Below are positions 4,278 to 44,057 of a stretch of DNA of 47,972 nucleotides, in pieces. The position numbers and the translations under genes were made by a program. Positions within the stretch are counted from its first letter, which is position 1, and each line of letters opens with the position of its first letter. Below the pieces are notes generated by a model. It saw only the letters and a list, made by a program, of their open reading frames with translations, was not told the origin of the DNA and ran no database searches. The DNA lies in NCBI GenBank assembly GCA_012031875.1, contig JAAUSZ010000008.1:1-47972 (forward strand). Reading direction: 5' to 3'. Source of the stretch: Desulfobacula sp. Its GTDB lineage: Bacteria > Desulfobacterota > Desulfobacteria > Desulfobacterales > Desulfobacteraceae.

Positions 4278-4447
4278 GACTATAACTGCTGAGACAGTTC
4301 AGCCGCAACTGGGTTTGACGCTGAACAAACTGATTTTACTCGATCTTCTATTTTTTTGGAAATGATAGTATACCACCATCTGATCACAACTTGTAATTAA
4401 ATCTCCCAAAAAAGTAATGTGCTATTCCTTTGGGAGCATAAAAGAGA

Positions 4448-4476
4448 TTGACTTTGGTTCCATATATAAATAGCAT
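4448..4476 (+). promoter_or_regulatory. Possible sigma70 promoter for fkbM2 and the O-antigen ligase gene
   Basis: TTGACT (4448-4453), a 17-nt spacer, then TAGCAT (4471-4476) lie about 30 nt before the start codon at 4506. The rest of the divergent spacer 4278-4447 is AT-rich with nothing else that I can name. Confidence 0.45.
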
Positions 4477-4505
4477 GCAGCCTTAATTTTATCAGGAAAA
4501 CCCCT

Positions 4506-5246: not shown

Positions 5247-5288
5247 GCGGCGCTTCATATTCAATGCGGCAAGTCCACAGGATGACCC

Positions 5289-6542: not shown

Positions 6543-6579
6543 TCAGCCGGGATTCGGTTTTTTGGGGAGGGATAGGATT

Positions 6580-7343
6580 TCAAAAATGGTCAAGATTTTT
6601 TTCCTTAAAATGCAATTTGGCATATTTATAGAAGGTGCCTTCAAAATTGGCAAAGGCAATGATAAATCCGGCCCATCCGTCCAGGCACCCCAGCTTTAAC
6701 ACATACAGGGAAAAGGCTGCCCAGAATCCATGGGCCAGGGCCGTGAGCATTCCTGATGTTTTCCGGCAGTCTGTAATTTTTCAGCCCCCAGGGTGGAATA
6801 CCGGTTTCCCTTATGGAGCAATTCCTCCAGGTTTTTGAATGGGATCTGGCTGATATGGGCCTTGAAATATCCGCAGGGTTTTTCACTGATGACCTCATAG
6901 CGTTCATGGACGGCATCGGGCTTGAATTTAAGCGCTGATTTTCTGAACAACTGGGGCTGGCGGTAGTCCGGGTAGAAACCGGCATGGCGGATCCATCGGC
7001 CCATGAAATAATTGCGGCGGGGTATATAATAGGCATCAAGGCTGTTTTCATCATTGATAATGCCCGATATTTCGTTTTGCGCAGCCTCGGTGCAGCGTTC
7101 ATCCGAATCCAGGCTGAATATCCAGTCATGGCTGCAGGCGGCAATGGCATCGTTCCTCAGCTTTCCAAATCCTTCAAAGGGAATCTGAACGACTCTTGCT
7201 CCGTGTTCTTCAGCGATCCGGGCCGTATCATCCGTGCTGAAGGAATCCGCAACCACCACCTCATCTGCAAAGGAAACGCTTTTTAATGCATCCCTGATCT
7301 TTTCCGACTCATTGTATGCAATGATATAAACCGATAATTTCAA
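6580..7343 (-). CDS. GT2 glycosyltransferase, LPS-core type (frameshifted)
   Basis: Family 2 glycosyltransferase resembling LPS core beta-1,4-glucosyltransferases (WaaE/KdtX type). Seen: VYIIAYNESEKIRDAL at the N terminus, VVADSFSTDDT, and the nucleotide-sugar DXD-type site SLDSDERCT near residue 80. The start is a TTG at 7341-7343 with AAGGAG 8 nt upstream (7352-7357); an upstream TTG at 7388 extends the frame but adds nothing family-like. Reading breaks near 6752-6763; a one-base shift restores a C-terminal part beginning MLTALAHGFWAAF and ending KNLDHF at the stop 6580-6582. The complete protein would be about 254 aa, the usual family length. It converges on the O-antigen ligase gene. Confidence 0.8.
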
Positions 7344-7567
7344 TACGGGCTCTCCTTTTTCCCTGTCCGCCTGAAGTCCTGCCTTCAATCTTTGTTCTGC
7401 ATGGCGTCAATCCTTCAGTATCATTATATAAAATACTTTTAAAGAAAATTTTGTCCGGGCAGGCCCGGAAGACTGTTTTTATGGGTCCTGGGCTTGAAAA
7501 ACAAAAGGCTTCAGGAGCATTTTTAAAGTCCTGTGATATTAAATTAATGGTCTGCCAAATCTTATCA

Positions 7568-7595
7568 TTGACAGAAAACCCAGTTGAGCTATATT
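7568..7595 (+). promoter_or_regulatory. Sigma70 promoter of the argS-gatCA-mutL operon
   Basis: Perfect TTGACA (7568-7573), a 16-nt spacer and TATATT (7590-7595), about 40 nt before the first gene. The following seven genes run on the same strand with overlaps or gaps of at most 36 nt, and no other promoter is apparent. Confidence 0.7.
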
Positions 7596-7636
7596 AAAAA
7601 GTTTCAGGTTAACCCGTTTTAAACAGGAGATAATGG

Positions 7637-8089
7637 ATGAAGCAGAAAATAAGATTTGAAAAAAACATCAAGGAAGGCAGGCTGACCATTCTTGAATCCA
7701 GCGAAGTGGACCCGGGCATTGTCATGCCGCTTCTCGAGGAAGAATACAATCTTGAGGGAATGGTAAAGGCTTCAGCCGATGGGTTTAAAGCCTTCAGACA
7801 ACTGATCCGCAGAAAAAGTTTTTTCCCGACCTCGGAGGTTTGTATGAAGCTTTTTGAGGGGACTGCCGGGTTTTTCAAGAATGATGCGGATCAGGTTATC
7901 ACCATTGAATATGATGATGCCGATACCTTTCCCAAGGAAGAAAAATTTCTGCTGGAAGACGATGATGTCGAGCTTGAGCATATCCTTGAAGATGATGGCG
8001 AGACAAGCGAAGATGAAATTAAGGAAATCGATGACGGGGAAGATTCTCTCGGCTATTCGCCGGAGGATATTTCCGAACACGAGAATTAG
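7637..8089 (+). CDS. Conserved-looking acidic protein of unknown function
   Basis: I do not recognise this 150-aa protein. It has a mixed-charge globular N-terminal part (residues 1-95, with [15 protein letters not shown] and [13 protein letters not shown]) and a very acidic C-terminal tail (about 96-150) rich in Asp and Glu. There is no signal peptide, membrane span or cysteine motif. The ATG at 7637 lies after AGGAG at 7625-7629. It is the first gene behind the promoter at 7568-7595 and ends 8 nt before argS. The frame is uninterrupted and codon use matches argS, so it is probably a real gene. Acidic tails of this kind can bind basic partners or RNA-protein complexes, but nothing here shows that. 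Confidence 0.7.
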
Positions 8090-8097
8090 AGCTGATA

Positions 8098-9765
8098 ATG
8101 AAACAGATGATTCAAAAAACCGTGGCCGATGCCGTGAAAAAGGCATTTGAAAAAGGCCTGTTGCCGTCGGACCGGATGCCTGATATGGAAGTGGAAGAGC
8201 CCAGACACAAGGTCCATGGGGATTTTTCCACAAATATCGCCCTGGCCTCGGCATCCCTCCAGAAAATGCCGCCGCGGAAAATTGCCGAGGCCCTTGCTTC
8301 GACCATTGAGGCCGGGGATCTGATTGACAAGGTGGAAATAGCCGGCCCCGGATTCATCAATTTTTTCCTTTCCCATAAAGCCTGGCACCCGGTGGTGGAT
8401 GAGATTCTTGACCAGGATACAGCCTATGGCCGGTCCCATATCGGAAAAAATGAAAAGATTCAGGTGGAATTTGTCAGCTCCAATCCTACGGGTCCCCTGC
8501 ATGTGGGGCATGGCAGGGGGGCGGCTGTGGGCGATTCCGTCGGAAACATCCTTTCCTTTGCCGGGTTTGATGTCCAGAAGGAATATTATATCAATGATTC
8601 CGGCCGCCAGATCAGAACTCTGGGGACATCCGTCCGGCTGAGGCTGTTACAGAAGGCCGGGAAAACCGTCGATTTTCCAGAGGACTGTTATCAGGGCGAC
8701 TATATTAAGGATATTGCCGGTCTTATCCTTGAAAAAGAGGGAAAGGCCTTCATCCATAAAGATGAGAAAGAAGCTGTCGACGGATGCGCAAAATTTGCAG
8801 CCAAAATCATTCTCCAGGGCATTGAAGCGGATTTGACGAATTTCGGGGTCGGATTTGACCAGTGGTTCAGCGAGCAAAGCCTGTATGATTCCGGAAGGGT
8901 TCAGAAAGCCATTGATGAATTCAAGTCAACGGGCATGATTTATGAAGAAGACGGGGCCCTCTGGTTCAGGACCACGGATTTCGGGGATGAAAAAAACAGG
9001 GTGGTGGTTCGGAATAACGGGCTGGCCACGTATTTTGCCTCGGATATCGCCTATCATATGGAAAAGTTCGAGCGCGGTTTTGAAAGGATCATCGATGTCT
9101 GGGGCGCGGATCATCACGGCTATATTAAAAGAATCAACGCCGTTGTCGAGGCTTCGGGCCGGAAAAGCGAACAATTCCAGGTGATCCTGGTTCAGCTCGT
9201 CAACCTTCTCCGGGGAGGAAAGCCCTTCCAGATGTCCACCCGGGCAGGTGAATTCGTCACCTTGAAAGAAATTGTTGATGAGGTGGGAAAAGATGCAGCC
9301 AGATTCATGTTTTTAAGCCGCAGCTATGATTCCGGACTGGATTTCGATCTGGAACTGGCCAAGCAGAAAAATTCCGAAAACCCGGTCTATTATGTCCAGT
9401 ATGTCCACGCACGAATCACCGGGATCCTTTTAAAGGCAAAACAGGAAAATATCATTCCGGACATTGATTTCAAAAAAGGCGAGCATCTGAATCTTCTGAA
9501 TGAACAAGAAGAGGTGGCGCTTTTGAAAATTCTGCATACCTTCAGGCAGAATGTCGAGAAGAGCGCTTTAGAGTTGCATCCCCATGTGATTTTTAACTAT
9601 CTGATGAATCTTGCCGCGGCCTTTCACGGATATTATAACCGGCATAAGGTCATTACCGATGACAAGGATCAGACCCTGGCCCGGCTAAGCCTTGTTCTGG
9701 CTGTGAAAAAGGTGATCCGGAACGGCTTGACGCTTCTTGGGGTTTCCGCACCGGAAAGAATGTAG
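8098..9765 (+). CDS. argS: Arginyl-tRNA synthetase
   Basis: Class I aminoacyl-tRNA synthetase charging tRNA-Arg; 555 aa, normal length. The N-terminal Arg_tRNA_synt_N additional domain occupies about 1-95 ([13 protein letters not shown]). The HIGH motif is seen as [16 protein letters not shown] near residues 124-139, the KMSKS position as [11 protein letters not shown] near 377, and the C-terminal DALR anticodon-binding domain spans about 440-555. The ribosome site is weak (GAG 6 nt before ATG), and the gene lies 8 nt after its neighbour, consistent with translational coupling. It is followed 2 nt later by a SPOR-domain gene. The reading frame is intact, unlike many genes in this window. Confidence 0.97.
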
Positions 9766-22886: not shown

Positions 22887-23618
22887 ATGAATCATTCAAC
22901 CAATATTGTTCGCGTCTCCCGGGTGATGAAGGATTTTACCATGGGCAAAGCCGTTGTCCAGGTCTTAAAGGGAATTGACCTGGACATCAAGGCCGGAGAA
23001 TATGTGTCCATCATGGGACCCTCGGGCTCGGGCAAGACCACCCTTTTTAATATGATCGGCGGTCTTGACAAGCCTTCTTCCGGTTCGGTTTTTATCGACG
23101 AGATCGACATCTCCCAGCTCGACGCCTACGAGCTGGCCTGGCTGCGGTGCGGAAAATCGGATATATTTTCCAGACCTTTAATATCATCCAGGTCATGACG
23201 GCCCTGGAAAATGTGACCCTGCCCATGATTTTGCCGGGATTCCCGATGACGAGGCCAGGGAAAGGGGAATGGACCTTCTGGATCTTGTCGGGTTGAAAAA
23301 AAGATTTCTGCATAAGCCCTTTGAATTATCCGGCGGCCAGCAGCAGCGTGTCGCCATTGCCCGGGCCCTGGCCAATGACCCGGCCATTATCCTGGCCGAT
23401 GAGCCCACGGGCAACCTGGACCTTGCCACGGGAGAGGAAATCATCAAATTGCTGAAAATGCTGAGCCGGGAAAAGGGGTGACCATTATCTCGGCCACCCA
23501 TGACCTGAAAATGCTCAATGTTTCGGACCGGGTGATCTGGATCAGCGACGGGAAGATAGAAAAAATCGAAAAGCGGGAAGAGCTTTCCATTTCCCTGGGC
23601 CGGATCGGTGAAAAATGA
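22887..23618 (+). CDS. ABC transporter ATPase, LolD/MacB type (three frameshifts)
   Basis: ATPase of the LolD/MacB (type VII) group, about 243 aa when corrected. Walker A is [12 protein letters not shown], the Q-loop [10 protein letters not shown], the signature [17 protein letters not shown], Walker [13 protein letters not shown] and the H-loop ISATHDLKM. Single-base losses break the frame near 23150, 23232 (TTTTGCC) and 23478. With each repaired, the sequence runs to the TGA at 23616-23618, which overlaps the ATG of the giant FtsX gene at 23615. The three breaks within one otherwise perfect domain, with all catalytic motifs kept, point to sequence error. Confidence 0.88.
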
Positions 23619-26600
23619 GGGGCAAACGGGCTGCTGATATATGGACCATTTTATCATGCCTGGTTATTTTTCTTTTTTCCTATTCCGGGCCGGCTGCCTC
23701 TTCGGAAGGCCACGGTCAGCAGGAATTTTCTCAGCATATCCGGGCATTTTCAAGCATTTCCGACCGAAGCAGCGGCACCGACGGGGCGGCCCGGGCCGCG
23801 GCCTATATCCAGGCTTTTTTTAAAGACCTGGGATATGAAACCGGAATCCAGACCTTTTCCATGCCTGTCCGGCAGGCGGCAAAAACCCGTCTCACCGTTG
23901 AGAAAACAGACCAATCCATGGACATCGCCCCCTTTCTGTCCAATGCGATTTCTCCGGATACCCTGGCCGAACCCGGGATCCAGGGGCCCCTGGTTTATGT
24001 GGGCAAGGGGGAAATGGGCGATTTTAATCACCAGGACATCAAAAACGCCATTGTTCTGATGGATCTGGATTCCGGGGAGAACTGGATCAATGCCCTGACC
24101 CTGGGCGCCAAGGCCCTGATCTATGTTTTTGAACAGCCGCCGGACCGGTATTTATTTGAAGACAAACTGGAATTGTCTCCGGTGACCTTTCCGAAATTCA
24201 TGCTTTCGGCAACCCAGGCAGAAACTCTGCTGCCCGGCTTTAAAACCTCTTCTTCGTCCAATCCCCTTGTAAGGATCAGCTCCGATGTGAAATGGACCCC
24301 TGCGATCCTTGAAAACATTTACTGCCTGGTGCCGGGCCGCACCCTCAAGGATGAATTGATTATTGTGGAGGGGTTTTATGATACCGCGGGCTTTGTCCCC
24401 AAGCATTCACCCGGTGCGGACCAATCCTGTTCCATTGCCTCCCTTCTGGACCTGGCCGCCTTTCTGAAAAACAACCCGCCGGAGCGCTCTGTTCTTTTAA
24501 CCGCCACGGCCGGGCACGGCAACAGCCTTGCAGGCATGAGAGAAATGATCTGGACCCTGGATATCTCCTCGGGCCGCCTCAAAAAGATGCGGGCCGAGGC
24601 CCGGCAGCGCATGGCCGAGTCTGAGCAGGGCCTGGAGCTTCTGGACCGGTGCGGCCGGAAGGAAAAGCTGGACAAGGACGAGCTGGACCGGGTTCAGAAA
24701 ATCATTCAGGAAATAGCCAAAACAGAAATAGACAGCCTGAGCAACCAGTTGATGCGGCTTCGCCTTGAAAAAAATCCCGATGAAATGGAGATCAAGCGCC
24801 TGGCAGGACAAAGAATGGACCTGAAACGGTTTGAAAGCCGGAAGGATCTTCTGGACCTGACCCGGGAAGAGGCTGATCTGATGACCGCCATGATCCCGCG
24901 TGCCAGGGAAAAAATTGAAAATGCCCGGACGGATGCAGGCATCCGGCAGCAGCACCTCATTTCGGCAAGGGAGTTTAAACAGGGGATTCAGGATAAACAT
25001 ATTCTCATGGTGTTTTCCCTGCATCTTTCAAGCCACGGCACCGGTATCGGCGCCTTTAACGGAGGATGGCTCTATGAGATCGATGACTCCATCAATACCT
25101 TTGCGCCCTATGTGAAGATGAATGAAACCCTTCTTGACAGGGCCGGCCAGGTGGCCGGCAAGCTTAAGGCGGAAAACCTGGTAAAGGACACCTTAAGGCC
25201 CTCCCTTCATCGCTCCTGGCGCAGTTATTTCAAGGATACCCCGCCCCTGGGCGGAGAGGTCGGCAACCTGGCCGGGTACCCCGGGCTCAGCCTTGTCACC
25301 ACGGATGACGCCCGGCAATTCTGGAACACCCCCGGGGATACCCTGGAAAAAGTCGATATGGGCTATGCCGAGGGTCAAAGCCGGTTTATTTCCCATTTGA
25401 TCGAAAACCTGGCCTCGGCCCCGGACCTGGCCTTTCCAAGGCTCCCCCAGAACGGGTTTGCCACCCTATCGGGAAGGGCGCTTTTCATGCGGCACGGGGC
25501 CGTGTTCCCGGATGCGCCGGCTCCGGGAAGCGTCATCCTTTCCTTCCAGGGTCCGGGGTTGTTTTACGCCATGGCCGATGATTCCGGGGATTTTTCCATC
25601 AAGGGCTTGGCCACAAGGAATCTCACCGTCCATAAGGCCATCCTGGAAGGGTATAAATTTGATGAGACCACCGGGGAAACCCTCTGGGCCATTGATAAAA
25701 AAAATGACCACCAAGGACAGGTACAGGGTCAGGATGAAAACCAACCAGGCGGAAACCAGCCTGGTGATGTTCCCCTGCAGCCAGACCACGCTTCTGGATC
25801 TTCTGGAACCCAGGACCTTCCGCCATATGACCCGGATGCAGGTTTTGGATGCCAGGACCGACGCCGTGCCGGTCCGCCACTGGTACAGCCGCATCGACAC
25901 CCGGTCCTCCATCATCAGTTCCATCTATCTTCAGCCGGGAACCCCCATGAAGCTGGCCCTGTCCGATACCCTCCTGACCAAAAAATTCCTGTTGACCCAT
26001 GCGGATCAAACCCGTCCCGAGGGGAGGGGATACCTTGTGGATGGGGCCTCCATCATTTCACCCACCCCCTATCTGGCTTCAAAGGACATGTGGTCCCTCT
26101 TGAATCCGAGGATCAACAATCTGGAGGAGAAGGGGATCAACAGCCGGAAAGTCAAGGATCTTCAAATCCAGGGCAACCAGGCGCTGAAAGAGGCGGAAAC
26201 CTATTTTGAGCAAAAACAGTATGACCGGTTTTTCAGTTCAACCGGCAATGCCCTGGCCCTGGCCGGCAGGGTCTACGACCATGTGCTGAACATCCAGAAG
26301 GATGTGCTCTACGGGGTCCTGTTCTATATTGTCTTATTTGCTCCCTTTGCCTTTTGCATGGAACGGGTCTTGTTCGCCTTTATCAATATCTATAAACGCA
26401 TCGCGGGATTTGTGGGTATCCTGGTCCTTTTGATAGGGATTATTTATAATGTCCATCCTGCCTTTGACCTGGCCTACAGCCCCATCGTCATTATCCTGGC
26501 CTTTTTCATTCTCGGCTTATCTGCGGCCGTGACCTGGATCATTTTCAATTATTTTGAAAATGAGATGAAACGGTTTCAGCAGCATGGGAAAAGGCGAAAT

Positions 26601-28424
26601 GAAGGGGAGATCACCCTTTTAAAAGCGTTTGCCGCCTCTTTTCTCATGGGGGTCAACAACCTCCGGCGCAGGCGGGTCAGGACCTTTTTAACCTGCACCA
26701 CCCTGGTGATCCTGACCTTTACCATCATGAGTTTCACCTCTGTGAAAAGCATCCGCCAGCATTCCCGGCTCTTATACAGTGAAAGAACCCCCTACCAGGG
26801 GCTCCTGGTCAAACAGATGAACTGGCAGAGCCTTCCCGGCAGGGCCTTTAAGATCATCGAGAATTCCCTGGCAGCGGATATGATCGCCGCCCCAAGGGCC
26901 TGGCTTGAAAGCCGGGACCGGTCCCAGACAGCCGGAATTTCCCTGATGCGGGATAAGGAAATTTTTGAAGCCAACGGGCTCATCGGTTTATCCCCCAAGG
27001 AATCCGAGATCACCGGCCTGCCGGAGCGCCTCACCCGGGGGCGCTGGTTTTCTCCCCGGGACCGGTATTCCATTATCATTCCGGAAAGCATGGCCCAAAG
27101 GCTGAACCTTCCCGACCCAGGCGCACAAGAATCCTTTGTCACCCTGTGGTCCATCCCTTTTAAGGTCATCGGCACCTTTTCCGGTAAGAATTTTGATGAA
27201 TTCATGGACCTGGACGGAGAGCCTTTGACCCCGGCCGTTTTCCCGGACGAAGTATTCCAGAAAACCACGGAGGCCGAGGTGGAGGCCATGGAATCCGGGG
27301 ACGATATCCGGGCCTTTCAAAGCCGGTATCAGCATATTCCCTTTGACCAGACCGCCATCATTCCCTATGATACCCTGGTTTCCTTGGGGGGGAGTCTGAA
27401 AAGCATTGCACTGAAATATAAGACGGAAACCCCGGACCATGCCTCAACCTTTCAACTGGCGGACCGGTTCGGATTATGGCTTTTTTCCGGTGAGAAAAAA
27501 GGGGTGTATATTTACAGCGCCGGCGACAGCCTGAACTACAGCGGGCTGCCCAATATTTTCATCCCCATCCTGATTTCCGTTTTCATTGTCCTGAATACCA
27601 TGATCGGCAGCGTCCAGGAACGGAAAAAGGAAATCGGAATTTATACCTCCATCGGCATGGCGCCCTCCCACGTGTCCATTATTTTTATTGCCGAAGCGGT
27701 TTCCTATGCCGTATTGAGTGTGGTCCTGGGTTATATTCTGGCCCAGTTGGTGGTAAAAGTCTTTGCAGGGACAGCCCTTCTCAACGGGCTCACCGTCAAC
27801 TATTCCTCCCTTGGCGGGGTTTTTGCCATGGCCATGGTCATGCTGGTGGTGGTGCTGTCCTCCATTTATCCGTCCCGGGTGGCTGCGGCCATCGCCATTC
27901 CCGATGTTGAAAAATCCTGGGAAATGGCCAAAGCCGAGGGCAATACCCTTTCCATTGACCTGCCCTTTCTCATCAAAGAATCCGAGGCCTCAAGCCTTTG
28001 CGGATTTCTTTATCAATTCTTTGATTCCCACCGGGCCGTATCCCATGGTATTTTCTCCGTGGGCCGGCTGGAGATGGTTCCCCTCGAACCCCCTGCAGAT
28101 GGGGAAAAGAGAACAGGAGAGGGGTTTGGGGGTGACTTTCAGATTGATTTTACAGCCTGGCTGGCCCCCTTTGATCTCGGGGTCATGCAGCAGGTCCGGT
28201 TTGAGGTTCGGGTTTCGCCGCAGTTCCGGAATTATATGGAAATCAAGCTGGCCATTGTACGAAACTCGGGGGAACACAATACCTGGTGGCGGGTGAACAA
28301 AAGATTTGTGAACCTGATCCGCAAACAACTGCTGGTCTGGCGGGCCATGCCCATGGGTGAAAAAGAGAGCTTCATCCATGTCGCGGCATCCCGCACCGGA
28401 GAAAAGGACGGAGCCCTTGTTTAA
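23615..28424 (+). CDS. Giant fusion: pseudo-M28 peptidase ectodomain + FtsX permease (~1602 aa)
   Basis: One gene split by an extra A in the A8 run 25697-25704; with seven As it reads 1602 codons. Order: signal anchor (about 10-28); M28-like domain (about 35-620) interrupted by a coiled-coil insert (about 320-455); a carboxypeptidase-regulatory-like beta domain (about 610-690); a second extracytoplasmic region with coiled coil; four TM helices (about 895-985); then an FtsX core with TM near 1020, a ~230-aa ectodomain and three TM (about 1311-1428); and a ~170-aa C-terminal tail. M28 metal ligands look lost: F254-Y-D for HxD, D269-Q for the DD pair, G300-H for the EE pair, and N571 in WNTPGDT for the usual His. 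It is coupled to the ATPase (ATGA overlap) and overlaps the next gene. Probably a non-enzymatic substrate-binding permease. Confidence 0.8.
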
Positions 28425-34366: not shown

Positions 34367-34699
34367 CTAAATTTTTTGCAGGGCCTCATCAAGGTTTTTC
34401 TCAATGGACAGGTACCCGTCAAACCCGGCAATATCAAAGACTTCCCTGACATAGTCCTGAAGGCTGCAAAGGACGATATTCCCGTCCATGCGTTTGAGGT
34501 CCTTGGTTGTTTTCAGCATGACCCGTATTCCGGCGCTGGAGATATACTCCAGATTTTCGAGGTTGAAAACCAGGCGTTTCTGTCCGTTTTCGAGGGTGGT
34601 ATAGATCCGGCTTTCAAATTCCGGCGAGGTGTTGGAGTCAAGGCTGCCGTTCACGCTGAATATTTCAACGCCATTCACATTTTCTTGAAAGATTTCCAT
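34367..34699 (-). CDS. STAS-domain anti-sigma factor antagonist
   Basis: A 110-aa STAS protein of the SpoIIAA/RsbV type. Seen: VEIFSVNGSLDSNTSPEFES, the strand RLVFNLENLEYISSAGIRVML, in which the phosphorylatable Ser lies in SSAGIR near residue 58, and the C-terminal VREVFDIAGFDGYL. It would be phosphorylated by the RsbW-like kinase next door and dephosphorylated by the SpoIIE-type phosphatase upstream. The ATG at 34697-34699 has AAGGGA 8 nt upstream. It is the last gene of the minus-strand signalling operon; its start lies inside the 3' end of the kinase unit by a short gap of 20 nt. Confidence 0.92.
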   Translation of the reverse strand: MEIFQENVNGVEIFSVNGSLDSNTSPEFESRIYTTLENGQKRLVFNLENLEYISSAGIRVMLKTTKDLKRMDGNIVLCSLQDYVREVFDIAGFDGYLSIEKNLDEALQKI

Positions 34700-34719
34700 G
34701 GACAGGTTCCCTTCAGATT

Positions 34720-35169
34720 CTATTTTGAATCGGTTTTTTGAAGATTTTTTTCTGCAATATTTTTTTTTAATACAATGATATTTCTGTTCTTTTTCCGATA
34801 ATACCGGCACTCGTCGATAAAATGTTTTACAAGGTGGATCCCCAGGCCGCCGATGCCTCGTTTATCCAGGGCGCACCGGGTGTCGGGCAAGGGGGAGGCC
34901 GTGATGTCAAAGGGCTCTCCGTCATCCTCCATCCGGATCTCAAGGATACGGTCATCACAGGATAAGGAGATATCGATATCGTGTTCCTTATTGTCCTTAA
35001 AACCGTGGTTGACCACGTTGGTGAACAGTTCCTCAAGGATCAGGTCTATCTCCTTGAGTTTGCGCCGGGTGCAGTCAACAGCCCCGGACATTTTTAAAAC
35101 AAGGGCCTTGATCCTATCCAGATCCGAGAGCCGGTTTTTTAATGTGATGGATAATTTCATCTTTCCCAT
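34720..35169 (-). CDS. RsbW/SpoIIAB-like anti-sigma serine kinase (HATPase_c_2)
   Basis: A 149-aa GHKL ATPase of the RsbW/BtrW group. N-box: LILEELFTNVVNHGF; G1: MEDDGEPFD; G2: RGIGGLGIHLVKHFIDE. These are the motifs of kinases that phosphorylate STAS antagonists and hold a sigma factor or other target. No sigma factor gene is in the window, so the target may not be a sigma factor. I chose the ATG at 35167-35169 with AGGA 8 nt upstream; another ATG lies 9 nt downstream. It is between the cNMP-binding gene and the STAS gene. Confidence 0.9.
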   Translation of the reverse strand: MGKMKLSITLKNRLSDLDRIKALVLKMSGAVDCTRRKLKEIDLILEELFTNVVNHGFKDNKEHDIDISLSCDDRILEIRMEDDGEPFDITASPLPDTRCALDKRGIGGLGIHLVKHFIDECRYYRKKNRNIIVLKKNIAEKNLQKTDSK

Positions 35170-35217
35170 ACCCGTTATCCTAGCGGTCTCCGGTCCCTTT
35201 GTCAACCTGAAATCCTT

Positions 35218-35748
35218 TCAGATCAGACTGATGCCCAGAAGATGCCTGAGAACCTCCCTGTTTTCGGATTCAAACGCCATGATACATTTCCTCTCGGCAT
35301 TTGCAAGCCTTTGCCCGATGGGCCCTGCGATTTTCAGCAGGGTATCGGGGAACTGGTCCACAATCTTTGCAAAAGCCTTGCGGGTCATGGCGATGCAGGT
35401 GGTGTCCGCGGTGGCCGTCAGGGAAAACTGTTTGACCATGGGGGCCATGAGGGAGAGAACCCCGAGATAGCTTTCAGGCCCATATTCACGAATCATGTGT
35501 TCTTTTCCGTCTTTTTTCAGGACCAGGTTGGCAGAGCCGGATAAAATATAATACGCGCACTGGTCGTCATCATCCTGGAGAAAAATAGCGTCTCCCGGTT
35601 TATAGGACTGCCTTTTGCAAAGAAAGGCAAAGAGTTTCATCACATCCATGGAAACACCGGAAAAAAAATCTATCTGTCTGAATACATTCAGGTTTGCTAA
35701 AAATTCACTTTTATTGCCGGCATCAGTTGTGTCCATATGCGAGTTCAT
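35218..35748 (-). CDS. Cyclic nucleotide-binding domain protein
   Basis: A 176-aa protein with a single CAP_ED (cNMP-binding) beta-roll (about residues 15-130), seen in KPGDAIFLQDDDDQCAYYILSG, LVLKKDGKEHMIREYGPESYLG and VSLMAPMVKQFSLTATADT. The helix after it (AFAKIVDQFPDTLLKIAGPIGQRL) is followed by a short tail without an HTH, so it is not a Crp-type regulator but probably a stand-alone sensor or adaptor. The arginine typical of the phosphate cassette is not evident (the region reads PESYLGVLSL), so cNMP binding is uncertain. ATG at 35746-35748 with AAGGGG 7 nt upstream; it overlaps the ABC exporter end by 26 nt. Confidence 0.84.
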   Translation of the reverse strand: MNSHMDTTDAGNKSEFLANLNVFRQIDFFSGVSMDVMKLFAFLCKRQSYKPGDAIFLQDDDDQCAYYILSGSANLVLKKDGKEHMIREYGPESYLGVLSLMAPMVKQFSLTATADTTCIAMTRKAFAKIVDQFPDTLLKIAGPIGQRLANAERKCIMAFESENREVLRHLLGISLI

Positions 35749-38246
35749 AAAAATACCCCTTTTTTGCCATGAGTTCATCATAGGTTCCCATTTCCACTAT
35801 CTTGCCGGCCTTTAAAAAAGCGATCCTGTCATAGTCTTTCACGATATCAAGCCGGTGTACCACCGCGATCAGCGTGCTCTTCCCCTTCCAGTAGCGGGCC
35901 AGGACACTCTGGATCCTTTTCTGGGAATTATTGTCCAGGGCCGAGGTGGCCTCATCCAGGATCATAATCCGGGGAGATTTCAAAAAGGTCCTGGCAATGG
36001 CCAGTTTCTGGCGCTGGCCCCCGGAAAGATTATTCCCCTTGGTCCCCACATTAAAGTTCATTCCGATTTCAATCATTCTTTCCAGAAAATCTTCGCCGAT
36101 CAGCAGGGCGATCATGAACTGGTTGATTTTTCCTGGGCCGCCGGGTTGGTGGTTTTAACGATACCGAACAGGATATTGTTGAATATGGTCTGGGAATGGA
36201 TATACCGGTCATTTTTGAAGAATGCCACGGCATGGGCGTTTTTCTGTTTGATCCTTTCCTTGAACAGAAACCTTCCTTCCAGGATCAGATGGACCATGAA
36301 TTCGGGGATGGCCGCAATCCGGTGCTTTCCGGGGGAGAACCGCAGGGCCAGCTCCAGCAGGGCCAGGGTCTGTTGCCTGTTGATCTGATGCAGGCTTTTG
36401 TTTTTGATGACCCTGACGATCTCCTCATATTGGGCAAATTCTTCCGGCCGGATGGGGGTTTGTTCAAAAAACATCCGGTCCAGGGTGAGATTTTTTAAGA
36501 TGTCCACGGTCTGATAGGCGATTTCCTTGCCCAGGCTCAGGAGCGGGCGGGTCAGGTCCGCATCATCCAGAAAATCTAAAAAGAACGGGTTTTCCATGAG
36601 ACGGTCATTCTTAAACTCATCGGCCATGGGTGCGCCGAAAATAATATTCTCTGCAATGCCCGCATAGGAAAGGAATTGTCTTTCATCAAAAAATTCCACC
36701 CATTCGGCAACGGCTTCCCCGTATTCCTGCTGAAAGCTTTTTCTCATATCAATGATAACGGGCAGGTTTTCTTCTTCCTCTTCCTGGAGGATGGTATTCA
36801 ATCCGAACCGCAATACATCCACAAACAGGCCCGATTGCTGAAGCACCTGGACCAGGGCGTCCAGTTCAGGGGCGCAGTCCCCTTCAAGGGTGCAGTCTTC
36901 GCCGTGCAGCGCCATATAGGAGTACAGGAGATTTTCCCGGATGGTGCCTTCAAATATAAAGGGAGACTGGGATACCAGACCCATATTCCGGGTGATGTCC
37001 GCCTTGGCCAACCCGGAAATTTCCCGGCTCCCCAGGGTGGCGTGGCCCGAGGTATATTGATAAAGCTGGGCAATGCACAGGGCCAGGGAACTTTTTCCGC
37101 TTCCGGAGAAGCCCACCAGGGCGACCTGCTCACCCTGGAGCATATCAAGGCTGACATCATCCAGAAGCCGTATGCCGTCGGGGGTCTCCAGGCTTAAATG
37201 CTCAACATGAACAGAGCCTTCCAGCTCATAGGGTTCCCGGTCTTTTGCAACCAGAGCGGTCTCGACAGGCACATCAAAGAAGGCCATGGTTTTATAATAA
37301 TTGATGGAGCCGTCCTGGTAGACCTGGTAAAATTCAATCAATTCCTTCCACGGATCATAGAGTTTTTCCTGGGCGGATAAAAAGGCCACCAGGCGCCCAG
37401 CCCCAATTGCCCGCGGATGGCCAGGTATCCGCCGATGATGAAGATGAGAAAGGGCCCCAGGCTGATAAAGAAATTGCTCACGACTTTGATGGCGTATTTG
37501 TAGAGGGTCCACCGGATCCTGATTTTCATCAGATCCCCCACAATCCTGTCAAACTTATTGTTTTCAATTTCAAAGGCCCCATTGGCCTGGACTTCATGGA
37601 TACCGGAAACGGATTCAACAATCTTGGAGGATAAAATCCGTGACGCGTTGAGCCTTTCCTTGTTATCCCGGTTCACCCGCCTCTGCATCATGGGGATGAT
37701 ATAGAGCATGATGGGATAAAGAGAAAAGGATACGATCCCCAAAAGGGGGTTCAGCACAATGAGATATCCTGCAAAGGCCAGGAGGGTGACGATGTTGATC
37801 AGGGGAACCGCGATGGCCATGCCCACGAAATTGCCGGGGATGTTCAGCTCATTGAGCAGGGAATTGACCACGGTTCCGGGCGGGGTGGCTCTGAAAAAAT
37901 TCAGGGGGATGCTCAGGATATGGTGGTATAATTGCTTGCGCATTTCAGCCGTGACCTTTTCACTGATCCGGGTTTGAATAAGGTTGATAATAAGTTTCAG
38001 CAATGAGCCCGACACAACCGCGGCCAGGTAAATGCCGCAATACAGGACCAGGAGGTCGGGTTTTCTCAAATTGATGGCTTCGTTGACGATGCGCTGCTGC
38101 ATTTCAAGGGGAACCACCCGGGTGGCCACCGTAATGAGGATGATGATCACCAGCAGAATCTGGAGCTTGATATTCCCCTCCATGATCCATGAAGCAAGGG
38201 TTCTTTTGACAACAGGGGGCTGTTCTTTCCCGGCTTCTGTTTTCAA
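35723..38246 (-). CDS. ABC exporter with a large insertion in the ATPase domain (two frameshifts)
   Basis: A membrane-fused ABC exporter half-transporter of about 841 aa. TMD, about 1-290 (six helices, QQRIVNEAINLRKPDLLVLY, KVTAEMRKQLYHHILSIPLNFF). NBD: Walker A VGFSGSGKSSLALC (about 379), Q-loop VSQSPFIFEGTIRENLLY (about 422-439), then ~300 residues before the signature NLSGGQRQKLAIAR (about 738), Walker B RIMILDEATSALD and H-loop VVHRLD. A normal Q-loop to signature distance is about 50 residues. Breaks: one base missing near 37393-37397 (GCGCCTGG) and an A missing in the A5 run 36127-36131. Start is TTG at 38244-38246, after GGGG with 8 nt spacing. It sits between spoIIE-type and cNMP genes. 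Substrate unknown. Confidence 0.83.
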
Positions 38247-38306: not shown

Positions 38307-39776
38307 TTAAACCAGTTTAACAATGACAACCGTAATATCATCGGCAATGGGGACCTTGCCGATGAACCCCTTAAGATCCCGGATCAGCTCTTTTTGGATG
38401 GTTTGCGCGGGCTGATCCGGGTACCGGGTGATGAGGGCCCGTATCCTGTTTTCACCATACATTTCGCCTGCGCTGTTCCTGGATTCCTTTAAACCGTCCG
38501 AGACAATGGCCAGGATGGAGTCCTTTTCCCATCCAAGGATCTCATATTCGTAAATTTCTGCATCCGGCTCCACTCCCAGGGCCATGCCGCTGCCCAGAAG
38601 CCTTGTAAATTCTCCGCTTTCCGGGGAGTACAGGAGGGCGGGCTCATGCCCGGCCCTGATCCAGTTGATTTTTTTTTGTTCCAGGTCAATATCGGCAAAG
38701 AAAACCGTGGTAAAATGCCCGCTTTCAGAACCATCCCCGGCGAGGTGCCGGTTGACGGAGCGGATCAGGGGCAGGGCGCCTTGATAATCCTCGGCCCCAT
38801 AGCGGAGAAAGGCCCGGATGGTGGTCATATGGAGACCTGCGCCCACGCCGTGGTCCGAGGAATCCGTCACGGCAATCCCCACCCGGGTGCCGGAAAATTT
38901 AAAATAATCATAATAGTCTCCGCCGACCTCCTCGCAATAGAGGCTGATCCCTGAGATATCAAGGCCCGGGACATCCGGGGCCCGGCCGGGCAGAAGATTG
39001 GCCTGGATTTCCTTTGCCACATTGAGCCGGGCCAGCATCCTGATCCGGTCCCTGAGACCATATATCATCTTGTTGGTATGGGTGGCAATCATGCCGAATT
39101 CATCGCTGGTGGCAACGGGCACAAGGGTTGAAAGGTCTCCGTTGCTGACGGATTCCAGCACCCGGGTCTGCATTTGAAAAAGCAGTTTCAGATTTTTGGA
39201 ATAGGAATAGATGATATTGATGATCAGGACCAAAAGAACGGCAACGGCAAAAGAGATCTCCTTAAAAACGGTTTTTGATGTCATCTCCTTCATGATATTC
39301 ATTTGGGCGGTTTCTATTTCCGTCAGCCATGCCAGATCCCTTCCAATGATCAGGATGATGATGACCATGACCATCAGGTTGGCCACAACCGCGATCAAAA
39401 AAAATTTCCGGGTCATGGGATATATTTTTTGAAGGGTGACCCGAAGATCCGGACGGGCCATGACGGTTTTTATCACCTCCCTTTCCTTTTCCAGGGACAT
39501 GTCAACCGCGATAAAAAAACCAAAAGCAACAAAGCCGATGAAAAAGAGGCCCCCGCTGTAAAGGGGGATGGAAAAGAAAACACGGGTCAGGACAAAGGTG
39601 AACAGTCCTGCCGATAAAGCCAGGGCATATTCAATAAAGAACTGGGTTCCGGCCTTTTTCAGTAAGGAGGAAGCATTGACAGCCCTTTTAAGAAAAAGGG
39701 ATCGAAGAACCAGGGCCGCTGCGAAACTCCCACCCGTGTAAGCCCTCAGTATCCCGGAGGGCATGCCTTGGATCAT
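38307..39776 (-). CDS. SpoIIE-type PP2C phosphatase with membrane and HAMP regions
   Basis: A 489-aa membrane-bound serine phosphatase. Membrane segments near residues 55-75, 77-95, 125-145 and 170-190; a HAMP-like segment (VLESVSNGDLSTLVPVATSDEFGMI, shown in part) near 205-245; and a C-terminal SpoIIE PP2C domain (about 255-489) with VGGDYYDYFKF, VTDSSDHGVGAGLHM, FTTVFFADID, LAIVSDGLKES and ADDITVVIV, including the metal-binding aspartates. It would dephosphorylate the STAS protein in response to a membrane signal. The ATG has GAGG 8 nt upstream. First gene of the operon 39776-34367, with the ABC exporter 60 nt downstream. Confidence 0.9.
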   Translation of the reverse strand: MIQGMPSGILRAYTGGSFAAALVLRSLFLKRAVNASSLLKKAGTQFFIEYALALSAGLFTFVLTRVFFSIPLYSGGLFFIGFVAFGFFIAVDMSLEKEREVIKTVMARPDLRVTLQKIYPMTRKFFLIAVVANLMVMVIIILIIGRDLAWLTEIETAQMNIMKEMTSKTVFKEISFAVAVLLVLIINIIYSYSKNLKLLFQMQTRVLESVSNGDLSTLVPVATSDEFGMIATHTNKMIYGLRDRIRMLARLNVAKEIQANLLPGRAPDVPGLDISGISLYCEEVGGDYYDYFKFSGTRVGIAVTDSSDHGVGAGLHMTTIRAFLRYGAEDYQGALPLIRSVNRHLAGDGSESGHFTTVFFADIDLEQKKINWIRAGHEPALLYSPESGEFTRLLGSGMALGVEPDAEIYEYEILGWEKDSILAIVSDGLKESRNSAGEMYGENRIRALITRYPDQPAQTIQKELIRDLKGFIGKVPIADDITVVIVKLV

Positions 39777-40587: not shown

Positions 40588-42003
40588 ATGGTATTTAATT
40601 CGCTGACCTTCCTCTTGTTTTTTGCCCTTGTTCTGGTCTTTTCCCGGCTCAGGATTCCCTGGACCGGGAAAAAAATCGGCCTTGTCTGCTTCAGCTATCT
40701 GTTTTATGCCGCCTGGAACCCTCCTTTTGTGGTCCTTTTATGGATCTCCACCCTCATCGATTGGATGGCCGGCAACCGGATCTTTGCTTCAAGGGAAAAA
40801 TTTCAGAAAAGATTCTATCTGATCTTCAGCCTTATAGTGAACCTGGGGCTCCTGGGATTCTTCAAATACGGAAATTTTCTTCTGGACAATTTTATCACCG
40901 TCCTTGACTGGCTTGGAATCGCCTATCAGCCCTTGAGACCGGATATTGTCCTGCCCGTGGGCATCTCCTTTTATACCTTTCAGTCCATGTCCTATACCAT
41001 TGATATCTACCGGGGCAGGATGAAACCCTGGAATTCATCCGTTGATTTTGCCCTCTACGTGACCTTTTTCCCCCAACTGGTGGCCGGGCCCATTGTCCGG
41101 GCCCAGGATTTCCTGCCCCAGTGCGCCGCGCCCAAAAGTGCATCGGCAAGGCAGATGCTCTGGGGCGGGGTTCTCCTGGTGACGGGGCTCTTTGAAAAGG
41201 TGTTTCTGGCCGATACCCTGCTGGCCCCTGTATCGGATGCGGTTTTTTCGCAACCGGGGCAGGCCGGGTTTGTGGATGCCTGGATGGGAACCCTGGCCTT
41301 TTCGGCCCAGATTTTTTTTGACTTTGCCGGATATTCCACCTGCGCCATCGGCGCGGCCCTGTGCCTGGGATTTATCCTGCCGGACAATTTCAGGTTTCCT
41401 TACGGGGCCCTGGGATTTTCCGATTTCTGGCAGCGCTGGCATATTTCTCTGTCCTCGTGGCTGAGGGATTACCTGTATATCCCCCTGGGCGGCAACCGGA
41501 CCGGGACTGTCCGGACCTATGGGAATCTCATGCTGACCATGCTTATCGGCGGGCTGTGGCATGGGGCTTCCTGGCGTTTTGTGGCCTGGGGAGGCCTGCA
41601 CGGGGCGTTTCTGGTGGTGGAGCGGATCATGAAAAAAAAATGGGGGCCGGTGTCATCCCATGACAGGTTTTTCATGCCGCTTCTCCTTGCCCTTTCCACC
41701 TATCTTCTCATTGTCCTGACCTGGGTCTTTTTCAGGGCCCGGGATTTTTCCGAAGCCTTTGCCCTTTTATACCGGATGTTCCATTTTAATGGATCCGGGA
41801 TCCTGGGCCAAGGCGATATCGCTGTGGTGTCGGCCGTGTCTGCCTGCCTTTTCGGCTTTCACTTTGCCATGCGAAACAGGTCCTGTGAAGACCTGGCAGC
41901 GATAACACCGACCGGTATCAGGGCCTTTTTTCTGGCCCTGATGCTGATTATCCTCAGCCTGACGCCGGGAGATGATCGTGCCTTCATTTATTTCCAATTC
42001 TGA
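40588..42003 (+). CDS. MBOAT-family O-acyltransferase (AlgI-like)
   Basis: A 471-aa membrane-bound O-acyltransferase of the AlgI/DltB type, which moves acyl (usually acetyl) groups across the membrane to a surface polymer. About ten TM helices. Family motifs: YLFYAAWNPPF, PVGISFYTFQSMSYTIDIYRG, FFPQLVAGPIVRA, the RWHISLSSWLRDYLYIPLGG block near residues 285-304, and IGGLWHGASWRFVAWGGLHG with the catalytic His in LWHG near 331. The ATG has AGG 5 nt upstream. The 3' end overlaps the SGNH-like gene, the typical pairing of an MBOAT with its acetyl-transferring partner. Confidence 0.92.
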   Translation: MVFNSLTFLLFFALVLVFSRLRIPWTGKKIGLVCFSYLFYAAWNPPFVVLLWISTLIDWMAGNRIFASREKFQKRFYLIFSLIVNLGLLGFFKYGNFLLDNFITVLDWLGIAYQPLRPDIVLPVGISFYTFQSMSYTIDIYRGRMKPWNSSVDFALYVTFFPQLVAGPIVRAQDFLPQCAAPKSASARQMLWGGVLLVTGLFEKVFLADTLLAPVSDAVFSQPGQAGFVDAWMGTLAFSAQIFFDFAGYSTCAIGAALCLGFILPDNFRFPYGALGFSDFWQRWHISLSSWLRDYLYIPLGGNRTGTVRTYGNLMLTMLIGGLWHGASWRFVAWGGLHGAFLVVERIMKKKWGPVSSHDRFFMPLLLALSTYLLIVLTWVFFRARDFSEAFALLYRMFHFNGSGILGQGDIAVVSAVSACLFGFHFAMRNRSCEDLAAITPTGIRAFFLALMLIILSLTPGDDRAFIYFQF

Positions 42004-43039
42004 TACCCGGAAGAGATCCGGGAATTTTGGGAAAACCTGGGTTTTCGCCCTTTTGATCCTGATCGCGGTTTTGGGGTTCTGGGAAGGGTTCTGGCGGGCT
42101 CAGGGTTTTTTGCCCTCCATAGAAGATGATATGCCCCTGTGGCATCTTGCGCGGTCAAAAATTACGAAACAGACTCAAATCGTATTTGTCGGGTCCTCCA
42201 GAATTCAGTTGGGCCTCCATCCGGATGTGTTTGCCCGGGAATGGGGTATCATTCCGGTGAACCTGGCCATTGACGGGAATCCGCCCTATCCGGTATTACG
42301 GGACCTGGCGGACGACCAGGGTTTTTCAGGCCTGGTGATCTGCTCCATCCTTCCCCGCTGGCTGGCGGAAAAAACAACAGAGGATAACCGGGCCTCCAAA
42401 TGGGTCAGGAAATATTATACCCGGACCCCCTTGTCCGGCCTTGATGCCCGGTTGTCCCTTTTGGTTCAGGGGACCTTTGTGTTCAGGTATCCCGGCCTCA
42501 GCCCTGAAAAACTGGAAAAACAGGTTCAAAAAGGGGAGTGTCCCCGGCCTCCCTATGCCCCCATGCGGCCGGACCGCTTCCGGGAAGCCCGGTATACACC
42601 CGAGGATATCCCCAGGATGCTGGCATCCCGGATCAAGCTGGAACGGGCGGCCCTGGAAGATGCGGAACAGATATCGCCCCAAGAATTTCAAGAAAGGCTG
42701 GCCTCATTGAATGCTGATGTCCTGAAAATCAGGCAGCGGGGCGGGGATGTGGTTTTTATCCGGATGCCGTCCTCGGGTGCGATCCGCGACCTGGAAGCCG
42801 CTGCCCGGCCCAGGGAAAAATATTGGGATGTGCTCGCGAATTCCGTATCTGCAACAGCCATCCATTTTGAGGACGTTGACGGGTTAAGGGGTTTTCAGTG
42901 CCCCGACGGCTCCCACCTGGATGTGGACCAGGCCTGGGAATTTACCCTTCAATTGTTGAAACTGCTGCCGCCCCTGGGAAAAACAGCGATCAGATGCCAA
43001 TCCGGGATTGACAGGGCTGCTGTTTTTCTATATGAATGA
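41978..43039 (+). CDS. SGNH-like O-acyltransferase partner of MBOAT
   Basis: A protein of about 353 aa with one N-terminal TM helix (about 22-40, WVFALLILIAVLGFW) and a periplasmic SGNH/GDSL-like domain. The nucleophile block is VFVGSSRIQLGL (near residue 72), and the C-terminal Asp-x-x-His is CPDGSHLD (near 316). Proteins of this shape take the acyl group from MBOAT and place it on the glycan, as AlgJ/AlgX do. The start may be ATG 41972 or GTG 41978: GGGAG (41967-41971) abuts the ATG but is 6 nt from the GTG, so I chose GTG. Either start lies inside the MBOAT gene. Confidence 0.8.
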   Translation: MPSFISNSDTRKRSGNFGKTWVFALLILIAVLGFWEGFWRAQGFLPSIEDDMPLWHLARSKITKQTQIVFVGSSRIQLGLHPDVFAREWGIIPVNLAIDGNPPYPVLRDLADDQGFSGLVICSILPRWLAEKTTEDNRASKWVRKYYTRTPLSGLDARLSLLVQGTFVFRYPGLSPEKLEKQVQKGECPRPPYAPMRPDRFREARYTPEDIPRMLASRIKLERAALEDAEQISPQEFQERLASLNADVLKIRQRGGDVVFIRMPSSGAIRDLEAAARPREKYWDVLANSVSATAIHFEDVDGLRGFQCPDGSHLDVDQAWEFTLQLLKLLPPLGKTAIRCQSGIDRAAVFLYE

Positions 43040-43106
43040 ATCCGTGCGGACGGGCCTGTATCCAGAGAACCCATGATCCGCCCCAATCAAAGAAACAGGA
43101 TTACCC

Positions 43107-44057
43107 ATGGCGATTTCGGAAATGCACCCCGTTCATCAGTTCGAATCCTGGCAGGTCTGGCCGGGATCCTATGACAATAAACTGGTTCCCGGCCAATACC
43201 CGCACAATCCGGACCAGGGTCTGGTGATGGACCGGTTCACCCCCATTGCCTCCATGGGGTCCTGCTTTGCCCGGGAAATCCGGAAGGTTCTGATCCGGGA
43301 AGGGTATTCCTATATCCGGGAAGAAACGGACCACCCGGCCTCGGTCCATGCCAGCGCGGCCTGGGAAAGGACCTATAATACCTTTTCCATGCGGCAGATC
43401 TTTGAATATACCTTTGATTCCTTTACCCCCAGGACCCGGTGGTGGATATCGCCCAAAACCCGCCAGGTCCAGGATCCCTATCGCAGGATCATCCTCTATG
43501 GGTCCGTCGAGGCGGCGGAAAAGGATTTTCAACACCATGTGGAATGCTCAAAGCAGGCTCTCCTAAAAGCAAAGGTCCTGATCCTGACACTGGGGCTCAC
43601 TGAAATCTGGGAGGATAAGATTGATAAGAGCGTGATCTGCCTGCCTTCGGGGCCCTATTTCAACGAGGGCGGCGGCAAAGACGAATATGAGTTCAGGGTG
43701 AGCCGGTACCAGGAAAACCTGGATAACCTGGAAAGAATCTACAGCCTGGTCAAGACCCACAATCCGGGATGCAGGATCGTGATGACCGTGTCTCCGGTCC
43801 ATCTCTGGGCCACTTTTAGAAAGGACATGGATGTGATCGCGGCCAACTGCAATTCCAAATCCACCCTCAGGGCCGTGGTGGACGAATTTGTCTGCCGCCA
43901 CAAGAATGTGTTTTATTTTCCCTCCTATGAGATGGCCACCAGTTTTAATATGCTCATGAACCAGAGCTGCTTTGAATACGGAAAAGAGAATTTCCATATC
44001 AACCGGGCCACGGTGGAGATGATCATGAAACATTTTTTTGAATTCTATTCCGGTTGA
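43107..44057 (+). CDS. GSCFA-domain protein
   Basis: A 316-aa protein of the GSCFA family, itself related to SGNH hydrolases. The name-giving motif ASMGSCFAREIRKVL lies at about residues 48-62; TLGLTEIWED near 162-171 and MTVSPVHLWATF near 227-238 are further family blocks. It has no signal peptide, so it may act in the cytoplasm. The ATG has AGGA 6 nt upstream. It follows the MBOAT/SGNH pair by 67 nt, which suggests a role in making or modifying the same acylated glycan; the family's reaction is not established. Confidence 0.88.
   Translation: MAISEMHPVHQFESWQVWPGSYDNKLVPGQYPHNPDQGLVMDRFTPIASMGSCFAREIRKVLIREGYSYIREETDHPASVHASAAWERTYNTFSMRQIFEYTFDSFTPRTRWWISPKTRQVQDPYRRIILYGSVEAAEKDFQHHVECSKQALLKAKVLILTLGLTEIWEDKIDKSVICLPSGPYFNEGGGKDEYEFRVSRYQENLDNLERIYSLVKTHNPGCRIVMTVSPVHLWATFRKDMDVIAANCNSKSTLRAVVDEFVCRHKNVFYFPSYEMATSFNMLMNQSCFEYGKENFHINRATVEMIMKHFFEFYSG

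Follow-up and report, generated by a model that had tools for sequence, protein, structure and literature searches.

An ABC exporter of Desulfobacula sp. with a large insert of apparently repeated Q-loop/helical segments in its nucleotide-binding domain and a linked cyclic nucleotide-binding-type protein

We analysed an ATP-binding cassette (ABC) exporter gene at positions 35723-38246 (minus strand) of a 47,972-nucleotide stretch of DNA from Desulfobacula sp. (contig JAAUSZ010000008.1, assembly GCA_012031875.1), hereafter the window. Its nucleotide-binding domain (NBD) carries an insert of about 258 amino acids between the Q-loop and the signature motif. We propose that the helical segment of this NBD was triplicated and that the exporter is gated by a dedicated subunit with a cyclic nucleotide-binding (CNB) domain, which would bind the extra copies; we give this reading a probability of roughly 60%. 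Sequence comparison demonstrates the insert itself, the duplication behind it, its linkage and fusion to a CNB domain, catalytic motifs that were intact in 107/107 rows of the Desulfobacterota sets, and purifying selection. In ABC NBDs, the stretch from Q-loop to signature hardly varies in length and contains the lobe through which the NBD communicates with the membrane domain.

Size and reality of the insert

A preliminary description of this DNA had placed the exporter in a single gene with an insert of about 240 residues, giving some 300 residues between Q-loop and signature where about 50 are usual. The window letters hold the strings in the order described, namely the Q-loop QSPFIFEGTIRENLLYS (36969-36919), GIAENIIFGAP (36660-36628), TIFNNILFGIV (36189-36157) and LSGGQRQK (36028-36005). 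In the intact homologue L039, 314 residues lay between Q-loop and signature, compared with 55-56 in ordinary exporters of related genomes (5/26 measurable with that script); both spacings agree with those first given, and the insert was confirmed at a slightly larger size. Walker A was separated from the signature by 358-495 residues (median 363) in 33/33 insert homologues and by 103-118 residues (median 104) in the ordinary exporters of relatives (21/26 measurable); that is, the insert family falls outside the usual Walker A-signature spacing of ABC exporters. The homologues used were single open frames, mostly of 835-888 amino acids, and L070 (933 amino acids) and L069 (989 amino acids) had longer inserts. 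The Q-loop-to-signature distance was 418 residues in L070 (5669-6946) and 447 in L069 (5583-6947), where a run of short near-identical repeats stands behind the Q-loop.

Some sequences were restricted in use. One L065 open reading frame (ORF) of 1531 amino acids (4033-8628), whose N-terminus is doubtful, was kept in alignments A1 and A3 and left out of A2; the wrong-frame ORF at 13136-15241 of L065 was excluded from all alignments. L069 and L070 were excluded from alignments A4 and A5, and L071 and L073, with no ORF over 700 amino acids, were excluded.

The exporter was found as three minus-strand ORFs in different frames, not as the one ORF first assumed, and the signature motif stands in another frame than the insert. 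The identification as an ABC exporter with an insert held. Taken alone, this spread over three frames could suggest that two ABC genes were misassembled or that a second NBD is present; however, many independent genomes carry the same insert in a single frame, and the insert-holding ORF showed no Walker A pattern GxxxxGK[ST] downstream of the Q-loop, so that a tandem of two NBDs with a second Walker A is contradicted, as the preliminary description had maintained. In the window, the insert is conserved and stays in one frame as far as the second frame break; therefore, it is not the product of a false join. The intact homologues thus settle the misassembly test that had been suggested. We regard both explanations as having a negligible probability, and, judged from the sequences, the insert is real and not an assembly artefact.

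Compared with two relatives (L039 and L010), the window is one base short at each frame break, near 37.39 kb for the first and near 36.13 kb for the second. Two breaks in one gene might suggest a decaying pseudogene in the window organism. However, the three pieces of the ABC gene evolve like their intact neighbours: nonsynonymous over synonymous divergence (dN/dS; NG86, window versus L039) was 0.087/0.594 for the transmembrane domain (TMD) piece, 0.089/0.847 for the NBD/insert piece and 0.027/0.696 for the C-terminal piece, and 0.087/0.662, 0.102/0.875 and 0.118/0.721 for the neighbouring cNMP, HATPase and SpoIIE genes described below. Moreover, each break is the lack of one base in a short base run, and the assembly is fragmented (357 contigs, 87.44% completeness, 5.99% contamination). 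Because the pieces evolve like intact genes, sequencing error appears more likely than gene decay, and we consider a pseudogene unlikely. The insert alone gave 0.084/0.762 in the same comparison, a ratio of about 0.11, indicating purifying selection.

Repeat structure of the insert

The three look-alike strings had been taken as a sign that the segment behind the Q-loop was copied repeatedly. From an alignment of 111 rows, 107 from the Desulfobacterota sets and 4 from Alphaproteobacteria, we took nine segments and compared all 36 pairs by hhalign. Copy B (L039 489-590) matched copy C (646-748) with E 2.9e-12 and a probability of 97.9%; copy A (405-488), which holds the true Q-loop, matched C with E 4.8e-7 (86.9%) and B with 1.1e-5 (61.7%). 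The remaining pairs gave E 0.07 or worse, except A-N1, which share residues by construction. With other cuts and seven added alphaproteobacterial rows (118 rows, three of the seven duplicating rows already present), the values were 1.1e-9, 1.0e-7 and 4.2e-7. The Asn preceding the I/L-x-FG part was invariant in 118/118 rows, in B as well as in C.

In the AlphaFold2 model of L039, B (489-584) and C (649-730) both run from a long helix through a short strand and a loop to a short helix, another short strand and helices. The long helices ahead of B and C are similar to one another (E 8.1e-10). Two MsbA-type exporter profiles also matched L039, TIGR02203 with its best stretch at 30-446 (profile 17-433) and NF008381 at 673-836 (profile 418-575); with these best stretches, the region around the Q-loop is covered twice in the same protein. 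Among solved structures, the profile of copy C matched Ste6-2p between Q-loop and signature (whole-chain E 2e-4), with weaker matches to other exporters. The profile comparison, the repeated secondary structure of the model and the two-place exporter-profile matches bear out the suggested copying and support, at the level of sequence and predicted structure, the view that the insert consists largely of two further copies of the Q-loop/helical-subdomain segment.

Two further candidates were rejected. The helical segment M (L039 591-645) showed no kinship to the copies by hhalign and is no fourth copy. The long helices before B and C were not supported as degenerate signature helices; they matched the signature helix with 0.18 and 0.033, and the best unrelated pairs reached 0.018.

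The L039 model had a mean predicted local distance difference test score (pLDDT) of 83.8 and a predicted template modelling score (pTM) of 0.76. Ten-residue blocks of the insert scored 68-95, mostly 86 or more, and the insert folded alone gave a confident predicted model (pLDDT 89.6, pTM 0.82). The rest of the predicted NBD was complete, with 239/239 residues of the ComA NBD aligned at a root-mean-square deviation of 1.7 (Z 31.1). A Foldseek search of the insert model against the PDB found nothing at E 0.001 or below, its best hit having E 0.35. VIA-align, in a second look at 982 chains, listed 22 rows with Z of at least 2; the best three were ABC NBDs (Z 4.2, 4.2 and 3.3), which is too weak alone. 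Pfam does not cover the insert, and phmmer against solved structures gave chance-level matches to a protease alone (best E 0.36). That is, these searches gave no known domain for the whole insert, parts of which derive from the NBD itself; a known domain had been named as the finding that would overturn the first description.

Linkage to a CNB-domain gene

In the window, a gene for a SpoIIE-type phosphatase with a MASE10 domain lies upstream of the ABC gene, and genes for a CNB-domain protein (Pfam family cNMP_binding for cyclic nucleotide monophosphates; hereafter cNMP gene and protein), a HATPase and a STAS protein lie downstream (Table 1). The SpoIIE, HATPase and STAS genes together make up a partner-switching gene set.

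For comparison we used the loci of a genome-contig scan, the best 80 of 106 relatives. Downstream counts refer to the 79/80 loci with at least 550 nt past the ABC gene, and HATPase and STAS genes were counted on the same strand within 1500 nt. A cNMP gene followed directly in 76/79 loci, and its frame, taken from the first possible start, overlapped the ABC frame in 76/76. HATPase was present in 65/79 and STAS in 63/79. Of the 65 loci with enough upstream sequence, 22 had SpoIIE within 600 nt upstream, in 13 of them on the same strand and in 9 divergent. L145 and L150 carry a HATPase gene after the ABC gene in place of the cNMP gene. In loci of a phylum sample, the cNMP gene was downstream in 30/30, the window's own included; those with longer flanks had it in 20/20, with HATPase or STAS in 8 and neither in 12. 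As a control, we took 20 regions of relatives holding 26 insert-less exporters, 25 of them with >550 nt downstream; 0/25 had a match to the cNMP profiles.

The eight alphaproteobacterial loci were hand-picked from search matches, and L184, L186 and L188 among them are close relatives. The cNMP domain was a separate short protein in 5/8 (L184, L186, L187, L188, L189) and was fused to the C-terminus of the ABC protein in 3/8, namely in Hyphomicrobiales UR115 (1027 amino acids, cNMP 918-1004), Azospirillum oryzae (1074 amino acids, 911-997) and Ruegeria sp. AD91A (1035 amino acids, 903-986). HATPase or STAS was found in 0/8 of these loci. Glycosyltransferase genes are close by in the Sinorhizobium and R. 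etli loci.

The preliminary description had read the insert as a regulatory module tied to cNMP-binding and SpoIIE/STAS genes. The tie to the cNMP gene is borne out by the adjacency (76/79 and 20/20), the control and the fusions, and docking on the insert itself is a step that we infer. The tie to partner switching stands for most of the 79 loci for HATPase and STAS and for about a third of those with room for SpoIIE; it was not seen in the 12/20 phylum-sample and 8/8 alphaproteobacterial loci in which neither HATPase nor STAS was found. The idea that partner-switching genes accompany every homologue is ruled out by these locus counts.

Distribution

The insert alone had stop-free matches in 35/145 related genomes, counting that of the window, and in 9/26 of the same genus; weak or partial matches (e.g. 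G104) were not used. A profile located it in 28/395 genomes drawn from the phylum. By title, the 80 loci of the genome-contig scan (the best of 106 relatives) came nearly all from deltaproteobacterial sulfate reducers, including Desulfobacula metagenome-assembled genomes and the isolates Desulfatibacillum alkenivorans, Desulfosediminicola flagellatus and Desulfopila aestuarii. A tblastn search of plasmids gave 248 records in ten groups, all with alphaproteobacterial names, led by Rhizobium (143) and Sinorhizobium (80), with 26-31% identity in the 20 rows listed. In the scans made, the insert was found in Desulfobacterota and Alphaproteobacteria, and other groups were not reached. L094 (1468-2298), titled Candidatus Aminicenantes, lies on a 3.4-kb contig and has 52% identity to the Desulfobacterales query; judged from this, it is probably misbinned.

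ATPase motifs and the CNB pocket

The window letters hold Walker A, Q-loop, LSGGQ, the Walker B Glu and the H-loop. Throughout the Desulfobacterota sets (107/107 rows, one titled Aminicenantes), the Walker A Lys, the Q-loop Gln, the signature Ser/Gly/Gln, the Walker B Asp/Glu and the H-loop His were kept; the Leu of LSGGQ was Met in 2/107. Of seven alphaproteobacterial rows, two of them from close relatives, the Walker A Lys was lost in 6/7 and the Q-loop Gln and the His in 7/7, and LSGGQ and Walker B were altered in 7/7. These seven (L184, L185, L187, L188, L189, L190 and L191) kept the insert and a cNMP partner or fusion while most ATPase motifs were lost, and the alphaproteobacterial members are probable ATPase-dead ABC proteins.

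The cNMP protein of the window belongs to the CNB fold family and showed no helix-turn-helix of Crp/Fnr regulators in Pfam. The partner is annotated 'Crp/Fnr family transcriptional regulator' at L184 (8267-8731) and L188 (10809-11273). Pfam gave no match beside PF00027 in the separate cNMP proteins of the window (E 0.1), L039, L069, L184, L187, L188 and L189; because the DNA-binding domain was not found, the label is doubtful and, judged from the sequences, probably wrong.

The canonical motif of the CNB pocket consists of the Glu and Arg of the phosphate-binding cassette. In the alignment, the window has Val and Lys at these positions and departs from the canonical pocket. Among 104 aligned cNMP domains (sets partly overlapping), Glu was kept in 9 and replaced by Asp in 2; these 11 loci are the eight alphaproteobacterial ones and L257, L258 and L259, none with HATPase or STAS. 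In loci with HATPase or STAS, Glu/Asp was present in 0/74 and Arg in 53/74. The Glu is also missing from some other loci without HATPase/STAS, a number of which lie on short contigs, and the loci share common descent. The locus sets for neighbour counts and CNB pocket overlap partly, since some genomes recur under different ids, and duplicates were kept. Loss of the Glu alongside HATPase/STAS is therefore a pattern in the sequences and no proof of ligand replacement.

Proposed mechanism and alternatives

We propose that internal duplication enlarged the NBD such that copy A kept the true Q-loop, copy C ran into the true signature, and copy B and added helices came to lie between. The extra copies would make up a lobe at the helical subdomain, which transmits ATP-driven motion to the membrane domain. 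The CNB protein of the overlapping downstream gene would dock on these copies as a regulatory subunit, and would then lock or release the NBD, gating ATPase activity or transport; in some alphaproteobacterial relatives, the CNB domain is part of the same chain. As the CNB pocket of the window clade is without the canonical Glu, the probable source of the signal there is SpoIIE/HATPase/STAS partner switching or a ligand that differs from classical cyclic nucleotides. In Alphaproteobacteria, the signal probably comes from a ligand of the CNB domain.

Several observations weigh against this proposal. The insert and the CNB domain persist in Alphaproteobacteria despite the lost ATPase motifs, so gating of ATP hydrolysis cannot be their sole function there. 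Three of the 79 loci (L087, L145 and L150) retain the insert with no downstream cNMP gene, and the 76 counted as having one include L102, where the short ORF gives a weak score and no match in Pfam. The cNMP profiles of the control were built from the insert-associated family and applied at E 1e-3; distant CNB domains beside insert-less exporters could have been missed. The match of copy C to Ste6-2p has a best single stretch of just 0.054, and the best match of the copy B profile, the Q-loop region of PglK (E 0.089), is not significant alone.

The triplicated lobe could instead have a structural or coupling role of its own, with the CNB subunit acting elsewhere, e.g. at the C-terminus or on the membrane domain. 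The position of the CNB domain at the ABC C-terminus in the three fusions would fit such an arrangement, as would the three loci just named. However, a CNB neighbour was seen beside nearly all insert-bearing exporters and none of the insert-less ones, and insert and CNB domain co-occur even with a degenerate ATPase; we hold this alternative to be possible and clearly less probable than a CNB subunit docked on the extra copies. The cNMP protein could also be a separate signalling protein that merely shares the operon, as the name transcriptional regulator in the rhizobial records would imply. Fusion to the ABC chain in three loci, the frames overlapping in 76/76 and the lack of a DNA-binding domain by Pfam in the separate cNMP proteins scanned argue against this, and we consider it improbable.

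A wider form of the proposal would be an unnamed ABC class in which the triplicated helical subdomain is a receptor lobe for the CNB domain and the exporter is a signal-gated valve. The Desulfobacterota clade would have exchanged the ligand for a phosphorylation partner switch, and the alphaproteobacterial motor would be dead, leaving a CNB-controlled membrane protein without ATP hydrolysis of its own. We put this forward as a tentative idea that is rather doubtful as a whole.

Relation to known systems

The exporter shares the TMD and NBD families (ABC_membrane and ABC_tran), the catalytic motifs and a complete NBD fold with half-transporters of the MsbA/TAP type. It differs from them in the roughly 258 extra residues between Q-loop and signature, in the dedicated CNB partner and in its NCBIfam score, the best being 306.1 bits for L039 against the MsbA lipid A exporter family TIGR02203, whose curated cut-off is 602. 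Four members reached no curated NCBIfam cut-off among the matches listed.

HetC of Nostoc is a peptidase-containing ABC exporter whose N-terminal CNB domain binds ppGpp with a dissociation constant of about 59 uM and is needed for function (PMC10986499). It resembles the proposed system in being an ABC exporter under a CNB-type domain whose ligand is no classical cyclic nucleotide, and it is a precedent for a CNB-controlled exporter. Whereas HetC has a C39 peptidase and an N-terminal CNB domain, here the N-terminal piece in the window matched ABC_membrane alone in Pfam, with no C39 peptidase, the CNB domain is separate or C-terminal, and the NBD carries an insert.

Other close counterparts are alphaproteobacterial proteins named 'ABC transporter transmembrane domain-containing protein' (e.g. 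WP_117873130.1, WP_246457273.1), which have the same insert, the same repeat pattern and a CNB partner or fusion. They differ in their degenerate ATPase motifs, in a CNB pocket that keeps Glu/Asp, and in loci where no HATPase/STAS was found. SpoIIE/RsbW/STAS partner-switching modules have the same clustered SpoIIE, HATPase_c_2 and STAS genes, which here are joined to an ABC exporter and a CNB gene. Our literature search found no description of such an NBD insert or such an operon. We rate the parts as ordinary (MsbA-like TMD and NBD, CNB fold, partner-switching trio) and their combination as apparently undescribed under generic database names, since 'ABC transporter' and 'Crp/Fnr family transcriptional regulator' conceal the family.

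The family occurs in two bacterial groups, and with its triplicated lobe and its link to a sensor protein it is a natural test case for allosteric control of the coupling between NBD and membrane domain; it may also link partner-switching signalling to transport. Members that have the control lobe and have lost the ATPase motifs offer a way to study the role of the lobe separately from ATP hydrolysis.

Gene layout and other features of the window

The features of the exporter locus are collected in Table 1. Both ABC exporter families, PF00664 and PF00005, were matched, the latter in two pieces.

Table 1. Coordinates of the exporter gene, its repeat copies and its neighbours in the window
Feature	Positions	Strand	Evidence
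SpoIIE-type phosphatase with MASE10 domain	38307-39776	-	Pfam SpoIIE 4.4e-38, MASE10 8.1e-20; HAMP match below cut-off
ABC gene piece 1: transmembrane domain	37338-38246	-	ORF; Pfam ABC_membrane (PF00664) 1.7e-29
ABC gene piece 2: TMD end, Walker A, Q-loop, insert	36112-37512	-	ORF; Pfam ABC_tran (PF00005), profile 1-80
Frame break 1, approximate place	37391-37394	.	Single-base gap versus L039 and L010
Repeat copy A, true Q-loop	36784-37005	-	hhalign versus B 1.1e-5, versus C 4.8e-7 (homologues), mapped to window
Repeat copy B (insert)	36478-36783	-	hhalign versus C 2.9e-12 (homologues), mapped to window
Segment M (insert), helical	36313-36477	-	hhalign, not significant with any segment
Repeat copy C, insert end into true signature, contains frame break 2	36005-36312	-	hhalign, mapped to window
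Frame break 2, approximate place	36127-36132	.	Single-base gap versus L039 and L010
ABC gene piece 3: signature, Walker B, H-loop	35723-36115	-	Pfam ABC_tran, profile 100-137; LSGGQRQK, IMILDEATS, VVHRLD
cNMP-binding-domain protein, frame overlaps ABC gene	35218-35781	-	Pfam cNMP_binding (PF00027) 9.8e-17; homologue starts near 35748
RsbW-like HATPase	34720-35205	-	Pfam HATPase_c_2 3.6e-21
STAS-domain protein	34367-34810	-	Pfam STAS 9.5e-21; homologues mostly 110 amino acids, placing the start near 34699

Elsewhere in the window, two long ORFs at 23615-28424 (864 and 988 amino acids) share about 750 nt; Pfam gave an FtsX-type permease domain for the second and no match for the first. Judged from the sequence, the overlap is possibly another frame break or an overlong start. 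At 40588-44057, an MBOAT acyltransferase, an ORF with no Pfam match and a GSCFA-family protein stand in a row, which looks like a polysaccharide O-acylation cluster.

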